The notes beneath the pieces were generated by a model, which saw only the letters and a program-made list of their open reading frames with translations, was not told where the DNA came from and searched no databases. Of a stretch of 44,267 nt of DNA, positions 11,324-43,173 are shown in pieces; the first letter of the stretch is position 1, and every line of letters starts with the position of its first letter. The DNA lies in NCBI GenBank assembly GCA_025399215.1, contig MU621226.1, positions 934 to 45,200 of the forward strand, read 5' to 3'. A program made the position numbers and the translations under genes. The stretch is from Globomyces pollinis-pini. Lineage: Eukaryota; Chytridiomycota; Chytridiomycetes; Rhizophydiales; Globomycetaceae.

Positions 11324-14089
11324 TTATTGATTGTCAAACACGGTCAATGGAACGTTATGAATGACACCAGCCATTGTTTTGACCGTTTCGGTAATCAAAT
11401 CAATAGGGTTGCAATTCTTTTCAACTAAAGTTTGCATCAGTGTTTGATCAAATTTATGAACACAACCTAAAAAGATATGGACACTGCAATCTTGAATTGA
11501 CAACCCACCTGATTTAGTCAATGCATCGATTAAATCCAAAGCCTTTGTTTTACAACTTAATTGCTCTTCGTTATGTAAAAGCTTTGTTTCTTTTTTTGAA
11601 ATTAAACCTTTGTAAGAAGATTTCTTCCATGGCGATTTGGTTTCAAAAATCATAGATTGGATTGATCCTTCTTTTTGGTACTTTTCAAACTCTTGGTCAA
11701 TTTTCATCGCCACCATTTGATATGATGATTTATCATCTTCTAATCGGCGCACCTTGTTAGATCCGTGTTCGCCTGACCTGTTTGTACTAGCATCTGGGTG
11801 CTGCCCTCTTTTTGAGTCTTCAGTCTTAGATGGAGCTGATTTAGCATCGTCATCACCTGCAGCTACTTTCTTCTTTCCTTTTGGGTTGACTACACTAGTG
11901 ATTGCCTGTGAAGGCTCTTTTACATGTGCCTTAGCATATGAAGGGCTACGAATGTAGCTGTATGATGGAGCAGTTGGAGTATAAGAGGCCGAAGTTGGTG
12001 AATAGGATGGTGATGCATGGGAATAAGACGGGGATGTGGGTGAATAAGAAGGTGAAGTGGGTGAATAAGACGGTGATGCAGGTGAATAAGATGGCGATGT
12101 GGGTGAATAAGAAGGTGAAGTGGGTGAATAAGATGGTGAGTAGGTATCGTATACTGGAGAAGGTGCGTCTGAAGCAGATTTGGATAATTCTTTTTGCTTC
12201 TTAGCTTCTTCATATAACTGGTTTTTTTCATATTCAATCATAGTCAAAACCTTCTTCACATTCTCTTCAACAGATTTTACCATTGTCATAGTAGAATCCA
12301 CACCATTTTCTACTTCATTTGCTAAAATATCGGCTGGTATTTGATACTCAATAAAAAGCTTTAAAATATTTTGAGTCAATTGAATCTCCTTAGTTAATGC
12401 ATCAGCAGGAAGTAATAAAACGCGTTCCAATTGTGGTTTGATTTGAATGATAGTAATTCCGAATAGTGTGCTAGATAACTGCATTTTTCGAAATGATTCA
12501 GCAAACTTTCTTTGCTCTGGTGATATAGATGAGACATGCTTCTTGAACATTTTCGCATTTGGTATGATTTCAATCAACAATGGTATGTTCAATTCATCTT
12601 TATCTTTCACAATTAGGGCGTCCACAGGATCAAATTTATCATCAGATATAATTTTACCAAGTACAATGATAAAACAACTAAACTGTCGTGCATGACATTG
12701 TAAAAACAACTCTGGTTTATTCTGCCCAGAGAACGAAGGTGTAATCCAACCATGCATGTAATGATCACCAGTGATAGTAATTTCTGTGGAAGAATTGATT
12801 GCGAATTTCATTTGCTTATCTGACCCAATTTTGGAAGTAAAAGTTTCAATAGGATATAATTGATCGTTTGCATTCATCATTTGTAAACTAACCATACCTT
12901 CAGGAACATGGTGGGGTCTTCGAACTGAAATAGCAAATTTCTTTGGTGCATACTGTTCTTGAAATATTTGACGACAATGATATTCAAAAAATTCAATTAA
13001 ATCTTGTGGTCGAATGATTTTTCCAATAGCTTCCACAATTTGCTTTTGAATTAATTCTTCAATGTATGTCAGACTATGCATACATGATTTTGAAAGCTGA
13101 CTAGACACATTGAGGATAGCATATGTTTGACCTTCCTTCACATTTACACACGAATCCTTTAAATTTGATTCAATCAAAGAAAGTTTTGTATTCAATTGTA
13201 AATCAAATTCCTTCAATAATAAGTTTAGATCCCCAATCAATATCTTTGACTGATTATTTTCAATTTCCATTAATGGAACTACAGGATTGAACATATCGCA
13301 TGTAGTTAAAATTTGACTGAGATCTAGTTTGTCTTTCTTGGAATCTATCAACATTGATTTATAGATATAACTTTTGATATTTTTGAACCAATCAAACAAT
13401 TCTTGAAAAAATTCGTAGGCTTTAGTTACATCTTCATTTCGACGTGGTGTGAAACAATTGATATGATTTCGGTTGATGGAAAAAATGGCGAGAGATTGCT
13501 GAAAGTTGTAATTGATGAATATCCATTCAATATGAAGTTGAATTGGATCTTGTACTAGTACTTTCGGTTTAGGAGTTTCGTTTTTGGTAGTATACAGTTT
13601 TGTTTCTACTTCATAATGTGTGATTGTTTCTCGTTGTGAATTACAAATTAGAACTAAAGATATATTCCGTTTGAAATTCCAAACATAAGTTTCCACTTTG
13701 GATTCAACATAAGATGTTATTGTGTTTTCCTCGACATCTTCGATAGTTACCGTTTGGAAACGTACTGATTTCTCTGGACTTCTTTCTGTTTTTACTTCCA
13801 TGTTGACATACTGACATGATTCTTGTATCTCAAATGACAAAATTGCGTTTGGATTTCTATCATCGAATACCTTTTGAATAATTTCTAAACTCAGTCCTAA
13901 TCGTTTAAGGCATCGTAGTTGTGATGCAATACAAATATTGACTAAATATTCACACAGGAGATATTTATCTTGATATTGGTGAGGGATATCCCCAATTAAC
14001 TGTGGTTTTCTGGTATTTTCTAATAACCTACCAACTTCTCTCATTGCATTCTTGACCAGTCGCTCAAAATCTTCGTTAATGTCATCCAT
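11324..14089 (-). CDS. Intronless 921-aa conserved protein with RNA polymerase II CTD-like heptad repeats
   Basis: A single open frame with no intron, in a neighbourhood of intron-rich genes. Residues ~80-235 ([32 protein letters not shown]) and ~520-590 ([53 protein letters not shown]) fit, from memory, a large uncharacterised family of protists, algae and some fungi. A helical stretch (600-635) is followed by eight tandem heptads at 654-709, four of them exactly YSPTSPS and the others [21 protein letters not shown] and YTPTAPS. Then come a basic PKGKKK stretch (~735) that could be a nuclear signal and a C-terminal block [18 protein letters not shown]...CNPIDLI (850-900). No catalytic motif was recognised. 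The start is the only ATG giving the whole frame. The function is unknown. The heptads suggest interaction with CTD-binding or CTD-modifying factors; this is inference. Confidence 0.9.
11963..12142 (-). repeat. Tandem 21-nt repeats encoding YSPTSPS heptads
   Basis: One partial (YSPS) and eight full heptad codon units in frame with the 921-aa protein. Synonymous codons differ between units, so the array is not a fresh nucleotide duplication. Degeneration increases toward the C-terminal side (YTPTAPS, then YSYIRSPS), the same trend as in genuine RNA polymerase II tails. Confidence 0.95.
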
Positions 14090-15125: not shown

Positions 15126-16363
15126 ATGAATCCATCTGTAAGAATTGTAAAGGCATTTTCAACCAAAACAATTCCAAAAATTTGGGTTAAATTCAATGAA
15201 AACCAAGCTACTCAAGTTACCACTAAAAACTGTACTGATGTGACAGACTTTATCAAGAATATTAAAAAGGAACTCCATTGTCTCTCATCATTTGAAATTA
15301 CCCTTCATGTAACTGATAAATCAGATGCAATCTCTCCTAAAGTCCCGATTGCGGAAGCTTTTAAAAATGTGAGAAGTATTCACTCTAACTTTAGAACTCT
15401 GACATAAATCCATTTTATGTCAAAATTTTATCAAAAACGATCTTCATTCAGGATATTGATATAGATCGTCATCCTATTGATAGTTTTGGAGAATATGTTG
15501 TTGAAAATGATGCTGATATTATCCAAATCTTTGAAGGAGTAGGTTCTGCTCTTTATTCATTAACGAATCCCAACAAATGTATAACAAAGTTCAAACAGTT
15601 GGTAGATGGTGAAAAGTACAATGTTTACTCTCGCTATAACAGATCATATGAGCAACGGACCATGGTAGAAGAAACCTCAAATTCGACCTTTATTAAGAAA
15701 ATTGAAAAAGAAACTCCAAAGACGATATTCATTCAAGATCTTGATGAAAAATATCGTCGTATTGACAGTTTTAAAGAATATGTTGTTGAAAACGAGAACG
15801 ATTTGAAGCAAATCTATGAAGGGGAAGGTTCTGCTCTCTGTCTATTGACCGACCCTAAGAGATGTATAACCAAGGTCAAAAATTTGATTGATGGTGAAAA
15901 GTACACTGTGTACGTTCACCATGAAAGGGCTCTATTTGCTTCAAAAAACCGTCGTCGGCAACATATTGAACACGAGCCCATGGAAGAAACTTTCGTGGGG
16001 TCACAAATTGAACCTGAGCCCATGGATGTGACTATGGAAAGTTTCCTGATCAAACATCTAGGACCTTCTGCCATCGAAATGCGGACCGATATATTGGGAC
16101 TAGATGGAAAGCCCTTGGTCCAAGTCCAAGAGTGGAATGCCGTATTAAAAGTTGATAATGTACTGTATTTATGCGAAGTCAAACACAATATGACCCTCCA
16201 GCAAGTGAACTCGGCTATTGAAAGAATGGTCAAAATTAAGGCTCAAGCAGAATTCCAACAAGCGAATAAGATTGTTGGAGTTTTCTGTGGCAATTTTATT
16301 TCAGAGGATTTAAGGACGTACATACATGAAATGGGGTTTATGTGTGTATATCGGTACGGTTGA
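15126..16363 (+). CDS. Crinkler (CRN)-like protein with tandem middle modules and a putative PD-(D/E)XK nuclease domain
   Basis: 403 residues after removal of a 26-nt intron (15369-15394) that otherwise looks like a frameshift. The N-terminus (KIWVKFNENQATQVTTKNC, TDVTDFIKNIKKEL, ...VPIAEAF) resembles the ubiquitin-like header of eukaryotic Crinkler effectors. Two 68-residue modules follow, 95-162 and 190-257, each with KTIFIQD, D-SF-EYVVEN, EG-GSAL, KCITK and DGEKYxVY; they are about 60% identical by eye. A linker (EPMEE...EPEPMD) leads to the C-terminal domain, where E327 (in EWNAVL) and E342-V-K344 (LCEVKH) are spaced as in restriction-endonuclease-like enzymes. No signal peptide is evident. 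A nucleic-acid-directed effector or conflict function is inferred from the family, not shown. Confidence 0.8.
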
Positions 16364-16564: not shown

Positions 16565-17484
16565 TTAGTTCTTGTCATGGAACAGTTCATCCAACAAAAG
16601 ACAAACCGAAGTACAAAGAGCAGCATCTGCACCAGGATGTAGACTCAAGTAATACACATCTTTACCCATCATATTCTTGAAAAAGGCCCCCACAGATTCA
16701 TGAGCACGTTGTTTGTTGCAAGTAGCAACAACCAACTTTTGACCACCTCGAACATCGACGACTTTAAAGTCTCGACTTCTATTGAGGAATTTGCCTTTTA
16801 CTTGGAAATCTGGTTCACGATCACCATCATTGAGGTAAATGTTGATTTTAGGATTCAAAGTAAAGATCTTTGGTTCGATAGAGAAGAGTTTTTGACCCGT
16901 TGGAGACTATAATCATTAACAAATATTCAATTTACAGTTGCTTCCCATTTTGAACCAATGGAAAAGAGTTTCTTTTGTAATGTAACAACAGGACGGTTAG
17001 TACTGTCAAGTAAAACTCGTTTATCTCTTAAACTCCAAGTCTGACTATCCAAGGAGAACCATAGGGAGCCATTTTGATCTTTAATGGTGAAATCATCTCC
17101 ACTAAAACTGTAAGCCTCCTTTAAAGTCAAAGTAGTAGGTTGTGAGACGATAAACTGAGGGGCAATTACAGACGGCCTGGAAGGTTGTTGATAAACAGGC
17201 TGTTGTTGCTGGTAAACAGGTTGTTGTTGCTGGTAAACAGGTTGTTGTTGCTGGTAAACAGGTTGTTGCTGATACTGTTGAGGTGGTGGTTGATATTGTT
17301 GAGGAGGTGGTTGATATTGTTGGGGAGGTGGTTGGTACTGTTGGGGAGGTGGTTGGTACTGCTGATTTGGAGGAGGGTAGTATTGAGGTTGTCCGTTTTG
17401 GTATGGTTGTTGTTGGTAAGGTTGTTGTGGTGGACGGTACTGTTGCTGATTATGCTGGGGTTGTCCGTATGGATATTGACTCAT
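16565..17484 (-). CDS. LURP-one-related (LOR/Tubby-like) protein with a PQ-rich N-terminus
   Basis: 296 residues in two exons with a 29-nt intron (16907-16935). The first ~105 residues are proline, glutamine and tyrosine repeats: a QYQPPPQ unit repeated four times, then a QQQPVYQ unit repeated four times. The remainder fits the LURP-one-related fold (plant-type LOR, DUF567), structurally akin to Tubby and scramblases: LKEAYSFSGDDFTIKDQNGS, LRDKRVLLDSTNRPVVTLQK, DREPDFQVKGKF, GKDVYYLSLHPGADAALCTS. The fold is thought to bind membranes, but no catalytic role is known. The low-complexity head recalls prion-like or WW/SH3-ligand regions. Family assignment is good, function unknown. Confidence 0.85.
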
Positions 17485-17674
17485 AACTTGGAATTCGTTG
17501 GTAACTTGTTTGGATTACTGCTTTTATCCAGTAGCCACTTGTATCACTTTTGGTTGAGTGGCTGTATTTCACACACGCACCAAAAAGAGGCTAGAATTTT
17601 TATAAACGTACAGCCAGAATTATAATATAATTGTACAGCCTTCTTTTAAGTACTTATGTGGGTTTATTTACATC

Positions 17675-41474: not shown

Positions 41475-42976
41475 ATCTATATGTGGAAAGGGATTTAAGC
41501 AAATTCTTGGAAAAGATTATTTCGAAGTTTTTGCTCCAGTAGCAACCTATGATTCTATTAGATTGTTTGTTTTACTAATGGTTGCTATGGACTATGAAAT
41601 TGACACTTTTTGATATCAATACTGCCTTTCTATTGGCTCCACTTACAGAAGAAGTTTACATCAATATTCCTGATGGATATCCAAACGCAACTCAAAACAA
41701 AGGAAAAGTTCTTCGGTTGCTTAAAAGTCTATATGGCTTGAAACAAGCACCATATCTTTGGAATAAAGAACTGGATCAATACTTGAAATCTGTTGGTTTT
41801 CAAAATACAGAATCTGAACCATGCATATATGTGGGACGATTTGGACTCAATGGAGATACAGTCATATATTTACTTGTTTATGTAGACGATGTTATGATTG
41901 CTGCAAAAAATTAGATTAATTATAGATCATATGTTTAGAAGTTATCTTTTATTAAGTTAAGAAAATCTATTCTATATTACGTGTCTTAGTGACACGTAAA
42001 CAATGATGAATCACTCACAGTAACAACAACATCAATAATATGAAACAGAAGATACATGCGAAGTTTCCATTAAAAGATAAAGGTCCGATCAGTATTTTTC
42101 TGAATATGCAATTTATTAGAAATCGAGAAGAACGGACTATAATCATTCATCAAATGCTCAAAATTGATCTATTATTGAACGATGCTCGACTTACAGCTGA
42201 AGAAAAACAATTAGTCTCGAAACCTGCTAAGACTCCTGCTGACCCAAATATTCAACTTACCACAGAAATGAATGCACAAACAATTGAAGAAAATAACTAT
42301 ATGGCCAATAAGAATTACAAGAGCTTCCTAGGGGCATTACTCTATATTGCCATTACTGCAAGACCTGATATAGCTCCTGCAGTCAGTGTTATAGCTCGTT
42401 TTGCTCACAGTCCAGGTGAACAACATTGGAAGGCACTGCTCAGAATTCTCAGATATCTACAAGGTACTCGTACACTTGTCTTGAAACTTTCTGGAAACTC
42501 ATTCAAGCAAGACTTAAATGATTTGGCGATAATGGCTGAAGCTGATGCTGACTGGGCTACTGACAAGGACACCAGACGATCAAGAACTGGGTATGTGATC
42601 GTTGTGCTTAATTCTTTAATTGGGTGGTCTTCGAAAATGCAACCCAGTATTTCATTAAGTTCTACTGAGGCTGAATATGTGGCTCTGGTGTCTTGCGCAA
42701 GAATTGTGATATGGATTAGATCATTGTTATCTGAATTGGGATTTTCCCAATTGCTTCCTACAATGATTCATTCAACAAGACAACAAAGCAACAATTGATA
42801 TATCATCTTCTAGAAAAGCACATCCAGCAATCAAACACATAGATATTCGTCATCACTTCATCAGAGATCGAATCCTAAATGTTAAGGACATTTCAATACG
42901 AAAACAATCCACAGCAGACATGACAGCAGATATGTTCACAAAGGCATTGGTTCCTTATTTGTTCTTGAAACACAGG
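41475..42976 (+). mobile_element. Decayed Ty1/copia retrotransposon pol fragment (RT and RNase H)
   Basis: Reverse-transcriptase motifs typical of copia elements are present: KGFKQILGKDYFEVFAPVA, FDINTAFLLAPL, LLKSLYGLKQAPYLWNKELD and the catalytic YVDD (LVYVDDVMIAA). They are followed by the RT-RNase H connection (FPLKDKGPISIFLNMQF), LGALLYIAITARPDIAPAVS, and RNase H (ADADWATDKDTRRSRTGY, SLSSTEAEYVAL, IKHIDIRHHFIRDRI, ADMFTKAL). The copy is dead: a frameshift in a T run near 41607-41613, an insertion after 41911 and a further frameshift near 42770. Gag, protease and integrase are absent, and no LTR was found on either side. Confidence 0.9.
41912..42021 (+). other. About 110-nt insertion inside the copia relic, with a hairpin
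   Basis: Coding similarity to copia stops at the codon before 41912 and resumes at about 42022 in a compatible frame. The inserted AT-rich DNA contains a 9-bp-stem hairpin (TTACGTGTC ... GACACGTAA, about 41976-41998) whose core repeats the GTGTCA/TGACAC motif of the nearby palindrome cluster. No clear terminal repeats or target duplication could be assigned. Confidence 0.55.
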
Positions 42977-43173
42977 ATCGATTTCCAGCTCTGTGTCAAT
43001 TTTGTGGGGATCTGGCATCAGCATTTCCAAATACAGCAACCGTTGAGTCAGATTTTTCAATCATTGGTTGGGAGAAGGATGACTACCGAAAATCTCTAAC
43101 AGACTTTTCCTTGGAAGGGATTCTGCATACCAAGCAGTTTATGACACTTAAAAATTTACGTTCCCAGCTCTAA
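42977..43173 (+). mobile_element. 3' fragment of a hAT-family transposase (dimerisation region)
   Basis: A 64-codon frame ending in TAA reads RFPALCQFCGDLASAFPNTA, TVESDFSIIGWEKDDYRKSL and TDFSLEGILHTKQFMTLKNL. This fits the C-terminal hATC dimerisation end of BED-finger hAT-like transposases known from oomycetes and fungi (VESDFS / LTDFSLEGILH signature; recalled, not searched). It starts exactly where copia similarity ends, in a different frame, so it is a chimeric junction. The catalytic part of the transposase is absent. Confidence 0.7.

Follow-up and report, generated by a model that had tools for sequence, protein, structure and literature searches.

A CTD-like heptad array in the variable linker of a conserved non-polymerase protein from Globomyces pollinis-pini

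CTD mimicry outside RPB1 has been described in yeast, where Sen1, Trf4, and Mpp6 carry CTD mimics (NIMs) in disordered regions of non-polymerase proteins (PMC7110113). Borrowing of a different kind has been described in plant NLR immune receptors, where self-derived domains, so-called integrated domains or decoys, have been inserted repeatedly in a conserved body (PMC4759884). Receptors with such self-derived baits (NLR-IDs) are a minority of their family, making up 3.5% of NLRs on average (PMC5067614). In the titles and abstract openings that partially cover the literature on CTD-like arrays outside RPB1 and on integrated-decoy protist families, the two-block family described below is not named.

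Here, we describe P0001, a protein of Globomyces pollinis-pini that displays eight CTD-type heptads between two conserved blocks. Its gene lies in a window of 44,267 nucleotides (the whole stretch of DNA analysed, from contig MU621226.1). We propose, while granting this reading somewhat less than an even chance, that P0001 is a lineage-specific CTD mimic whose swappable linker would be read by CTD-handling proteins, with the linker acting as an input or bait that shifts the two blocks.

The features of P0001 are collected in Table 1. The N-block (~640 aa) is conserved and mostly ordered, with helices and long beta-strands followed by a beta-rich part and a SLSPEQQ...LTKEI...IPSDLL region, and the C-block (~130 aa) is a conserved alpha/beta domain with the motif DLxDALxxSG...H...H.F...N.NPI. 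In the AF2 model (mean pLDDT 82.7; 91 for the N-terminal 380 aa modelled alone), confidence is mostly high at residues 1-640 and 791-910, and the stretch 645-786, within the linker that lies between the blocks, is disordered; we infer that N-block and C-block pack into one ordered core. RNA polymerase domains, including the RNA_pol_Rpb1 catalytic domains, were absent from P0001 in Pfam at E up to 1, in agreement with an earlier reading of the same DNA (hereafter the sequence-only reading) that had called it a non-polymerase protein. NB-ARC and LRR were likewise absent in the Pfam scan.

Table 1. Position of P0001 and its parts within the window
Feature	Residues	Window positions	Strand	Basis
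P0001 ORF (921 aa, ATG start, no interruption)		11324..14089	minus	
N-block	1-640	12170..14089	minus	72-sequence alignment; AF2 model
Disordered linker	641-787	11729..12169	minus	AF2 pLDDT <50 at 645-752 and 754-786
CTD-like array, eight heptads	654-709	11963..12130	minus	translation, codons, PDB phmmer
Two 63-bp blocks (units 1-3 at 12068-12130, units 4-6 at 12005-12067)		12005..12130	minus	inferred tandem duplication
Basic cluster PKGKKKV, candidate nuclear localisation signal	736-742	11864..11884	minus	sequence
C-block and stop codon	788-921	11324..11728	minus	conserved columns of the alignment; pLDDT >=89 over 791-910

The eight heptads are in tandem and in register, four being exactly YSPTSPS, and an additional YSPS immediately precedes them; translation and codons confirm the number, quality, and position of the units as first reported. 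In PDB phmmer, P0001 for the most part matched RPB1 chains or CTD peptides, with the array as the matched stretch. When the P0001 linker was shuffled 20,000 times, six shuffles gave one YSPTSPS and none gave two. The CTD mimicry suspected earlier is upheld at the level of residues, where the array is of CTD grade on a non-polymerase protein. Like the RPB1 CTD, it consists of exact heptads in register in a disordered region; unlike that CTD, it is an internal linker with 8 units rather than ~40, in a protein without a polymerase domain. What it has in common with NIMs is that a CTD-like stretch sits in the disordered part of a protein that is not a polymerase. However, NIMs are described as short motifs, bearing an electronegative stretch, that imitate the CTD in its phosphorylated form (PMC7110113), whereas P0001 bears a multi-unit exact array in an unrelated protein, and its binding to CID proteins is putative.

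Searching the 18.5-Mb eukaryotic assembly (459 contigs) with the array alone returned the P0001 locus (contig C137) and one other contig, C66, among the best candidates scored, and no third heptad array among them. Matches of PRP8 and uS5 gave this assembly no taxonomic placement. On C66, RPB1 domains 5 and 7 lie immediately upstream of a CTD of ~40 units. Since the RPB1 domains and CTD sit at this separate locus, the P0001 array is not a mis-joined RPB1, an origin the sequence-only reading had allowed for. Nor does it look like a simple recent RPB1 copy: the codon for Ser5 is AGY in 0 of the 7 array units with Ser5 as against 19 of 29 YSPTSPx units of the genome's own RPB1 (p 0.002), a difference that argues against such an origin. 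The same genome holds a second, divergent family member (G000:C92:59078-60010, equivalent to L002:1501-2433), 34% identical over residues 8-300; it ends at the contig end, with its linker outside the sequence.

At the DNA level, units 1-3 and 4-6 of the array resemble a 63-bp tandem duplication, and part of the array is therefore fairly recent, given that unit 1 is identical to unit 4. The two 63-bp blocks differ at six positions, five of them synonymous and one changing Pro to His. If ~30% of random changes are synonymous, six changes would include at most one replacement with a probability of ~0.013, the comparison having been picked after the sequence had been seen. On this codon evidence the array looks held by selection. 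Codon differences between units had been taken earlier as the mark of an old and maintained array; the maintenance stands, with 5/6 changes synonymous, but the array is not wholly old.

A search for homologues with residues 1-640 found 175 proteins, of which the best 120 were listed, and two further searches raised the total to 236 protein ids, P0001 included. Leaving out a paralogue fragment from the same genome (P0121) and an RPB1 recruited via its CTD (P0163), the working set comprised 234 proteins, many of them gene predictions on single metagenome contigs. Among the matches listed, many members align with 97-99% of the N-block; the C-block is also conserved, and both blocks, with their conserved motifs, flank a variable linker. 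Named chytrid sources are Geranomyces, Powellomyces, Fimicolochytrium, Phlyctochytrium, and Thoreauomyces; others are Arcella, Vannella, stramenopiles, a haptophyte, and dinoflagellates. The body has no match in Pfam, NCBIfam, or the PDB, and the description as an uncharacterised protist and fungal family accordingly holds for its protist and chytrid members. AF2 was mostly confident over both blocks; the fold comparison gave no match pointing to a function. Pore-forming proteins of the aerolysin/enterotoxin type were included in the comparison as a possible case of shared fold.

The family also reaches into Myxococcota-type MAGs, which is new beyond the sequence-only reading. Twelve loci come from bacterial genome records (10 with Deltaproteobacteria or Myxococcota labels, 1 Planctomycetota, and 1 uncultured bacterium), 4/12 of them on contigs >100 kb, and the family seems to be common to bacteria and eukaryotes. 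The ten neighbours at three of these loci (L015, L016, and L018) share no common partner in Pfam. By eye, the linkers at L011-L018, bacterial MAGs that are mostly Deltaproteobacteria/Myxococcota, are Pro/Ala/Gly-rich without a module; L014 is truncated where its contig stops.

Clear heptads occur in seven of the 234 proteins: P0001, five Geranomyces proteins (P0057, P0078, P0081, P0085, and P0091), and the metagenomic P0086. Fimicolochytrium P0225, with three degenerate units, is an eighth bearer. The heptads of every bearer lie in the linker; in P0057 and P0086 they align to P0001 residues 661-712. The remaining 226 proteins lack them, among these the second Geranomyces paralogue (P0214, P0221), Powellomyces P0042, Phlyctochytrium P0220, and Thoreauomyces P0223, whose model is without the C-block. 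The possibility raised earlier, that homologues would have only generic linkers at this position, is thus half borne out: it describes the 226, whereas in Geranomyces and P0086 this linker does contain heptads. Outside P0001, 30 seven-residue units (framed by hand on Y, with broken trailing units counted in) kept P3 in 26, S5 in 26, S2 in 23, and P6 in 22, T4 and S7 being the most variable (13 and 12). Positions 4 and 7 are likewise the most variable in the genome's own RPB1 CTD (29 and 27 of 40).

On a 173-row tree, in which P0216, P0162, and P0223 were entered by their N-block only, the linker changed state at least 13 times (six states, with degenerate heptads as their own state) and heptads fall in three places. 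P0001 itself is on a very long branch, beside P0050 in FastTree and beside P0002/P0006/P0026 in IQ-TREE. In constraint tests, whose groups were named after the trees had been seen, P0001 with eight chytrid rows (nine rows in all) was not rejected (p 0.68) and neither was P0086 with P0001 (p 0.376); P0001 with the three Geranomyces rows alone was rejected (p 0.0005), as was P0086 with the same three rows (p 0.0013). The last rejection implies at least two gains of heptads or several losses.

Might the array be no more than a product of drift? The linker could be a disordered spacer in which tandem slippage built a YSP-rich array with no CTD-specific role. Growth by slippage would look like the 63-bp duplication, and the unit number varies from ~3 to 5 among the Geranomyces variabilis records. 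Many family linkers, bacterial ones among them, are by eye unrelated low-complexity stretches without a module, and the plain QPS-type tandem repeat of P0231 is what a drifting spacer would yield. Such an origin would nevertheless have to arrive at exact YSPTSPS units, at a CTD-like pattern of variable positions, and at a 5:1 synonymous excess, in a genome where no third array was found among the best candidates scored. It would also have to do so again in Geranomyces and P0086, whose single clade is rejected, and to accommodate ubiquitin, CRIB, and like modules in the same linker of relatives. We consider the spacer unlikely, if still the strongest of the alternatives.

These other modules bear directly on what the linker is for. 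Modules were found in the linkers of 19/234 proteins: 7 with heptads, 1 with degenerate heptads, 5 with ubiquitin, 2 with CRIB, and 4 with a SNARE motif, one of them weak. Across the family, several self-derived modules, heptads among them, occur in this linker, an observation that goes beyond the sequence-only reading. Ubiquitin occurs in P0061, P0088, P0162, P0215, and P0216, and CRIB in P0027 and P0156, the top PDB match of the P0156 CRIB being PAK. Beside the ubiquitin of P0088 a ZZ-like finger is visible by eye; the precomputed Pfam list for this protein has ubiquitin families only. A partial R-SNARE motif is clear in P0050, P0109, and P0116 and weak in Fimicolochytrium P0195 (Pfam E 0.13; PDB E 0.38, followed by a lipase at 0.72). 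The top PDB match is YKT6 for P0050, P0109, and P0195, at chance level for P0195, and VAMP8 for P0116. The modules of nine relatives map onto P0001 residues 638-735; other body loops hold the WW domain of P0119 and the ZZ finger of P0205, at P0001 residues 104 and 312.

Close relatives can differ in their module. P0156 and P0216 are 82.5% identical over 527 aa and then carry CRIB and ubiquitin, respectively, while P0061 (ubiquitin) and P0095 (no module) are 62% and 68% identical in N- and C-block. The P0156 model has an incomplete start, and the P0216 and P0162 models stop inside ubiquitin, with the C-block beyond the model. Pfam was run on 171/234 proteins and the other 63 were judged from precomputed domains. 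Among 151 further members (E up to 0.01), it gave one synaptobrevin match (E 0.0006; bearer not pinned down) and seven other families, each in one or two members. A local profile scan, seeded with all SNARE, ubiquitin, and CRIB bearers including P0195, found no bearers beyond its seeds; because the bearers were its seeds, it confirms the place of the modules and is not independent proof of them, which the Pfam matches are.

A native nuclear role is the next alternative. The array could work as a scaffold, much as Sen1, Trf4, and Mpp6 do with their CTD mimics that bind Nrd1, by drawing CID proteins or further CTD readers into a nuclear complex; foreign proteins would not be sensed. CTD mimicry by disordered non-polymerase segments is established in yeast (PMC7110113), and the candidate nuclear localisation signal noted after the array by the sequence-only reading is indeed present as a basic cluster, its nuclear role being predicted from the residues. 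Basic clusters (at least 3 K/R in 5) past linker position 60 occur in 8/8 heptad-bearing linkers versus 78/166 others, and stricter ones (at least 4 K/R in 5) in 4/8 versus 20/166, counts that are affected by kinship, 5/8 heptad bearers being close relatives. FG motifs are about fourfold enriched over shuffles in 175 family linkers (173 vs 43.8 expected), with LFG at 17 vs 2.2 and FxFG at 13 vs 1.2 expected; they are most numerous in P0052 and occur in several chytrids. LFG and FxFG enrichment is a likeness to FG nucleoporins, but the motifs are few per family linker, no nucleoporin domain was found, and the P0001 linker has no FG motif. Nuclear location of P0001 is itself a prediction, and a scaffold leaves the ubiquitin, SNARE motif, and CRIB of relatives unexplained, which makes it improbable.

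In light of these modules, we return to P0001 as a CTD mimic in a swappable linker. Between N-block and C-block, the linker would present the CTD-type array to readers, which may be CDK-type kinases, CTD phosphatases, Ess1/Pin1, or CID proteins, or else foreign proteins attacking the CTD. Once bound or phosphorylated, the linker would alter how the N-block is arranged relative to the C-block and so serve as an input to a switch. Different lineages would plug ubiquitin, an R-SNARE motif, a PAK-type CRIB, or CTD heptads into the one slot. The pieces found are the CTD without the polymerase, CRIB without the kinase, part of the SNARE motif with no membrane anchor in the match, and ubiquitin. They suggest that the family is built for presenting parts of the cell's own machinery. 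An input or bait fits because the modules are recognition elements without catalytic or anchoring parts. Against this reading stand the rarity of modules, the many low-complexity linkers and the QPS-type repeat of P0231, the incomplete models of P0156, P0162, and P0216, the frequency of single metagenomic models among the relatives, the very long branch of P0001, and the lack of a functional fold match.

One further option is that the family consists of integrated-decoy sensors, independent of NLRs, in protists and chytrids with bacterial cousins. Linkers would then be baits taken from much-attacked hubs (ubiquitin, a YKT6/VAMP-type SNARE motif, the PAK CRIB, and the Pol II CTD), and an invader protein that binds, cuts, or modifies the bait would free the two blocks to set off a response. 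In that case, the CTD array would serve to lure parasites or viruses that take over the host transcription machinery. As in NLR-IDs, a conserved body has repeatedly received different self-derived inserts in a minority of its members (PMC5067614, PMC4759884), and different self-derived domains at one place in close relatives are also found here, in P0156 and P0216, both with incomplete models. Unlike NLRs, P0001 has a different body without NB-ARC or LRR, and an immune role for the family would be by analogy; we regard the sensor option as quite improbable. Least of all do we credit mis-assembly or a mis-joined RPB1, for which no supporting evidence was found and which a single open frame with conserved blocks on either side of the array, a separate RPB1 locus, differing Ser5 codon usage, and heptads in other relatives make very improbable indeed.

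The window holds several other features. The CTD-kinase gene reported earlier is present as a CDK12-like kinase exon; the link then implied between it and the array is not supported; the kinase lies ~8 kb from the P0001 gene and is only a neighbour. A 322-aa ORF at 15395-16363 (+) contains by eye two similar units of ~75 aa, its C-terminal part weakly resembling DUF6602 (E 0.0018, below the cut-off). At 16927-17514 (-), a YQPPPQ tandem repeat is followed by a LURP-one-related domain, and at 41579-43099 (+) there are pieces resembling a Ty1/copia-type retroelement, with one weak RVT_2 match.

With perfect consecutive CTD heptads outside RPB1, the kinases, phosphatases, and readers of the CTD would have another substrate, and the interpretation of phospho-CTD data from these organisms would be affected. 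More broadly, one body whose linker repeatedly takes up ubiquitin, SNARE, CRIB, or CTD pieces resembles the way in which plant immune receptors integrate domains, but the family is an unrelated one and extends into bacteria. If sensing is its function, the inserted modules would point to the host targets of microbes in protists and zoosporic fungi.
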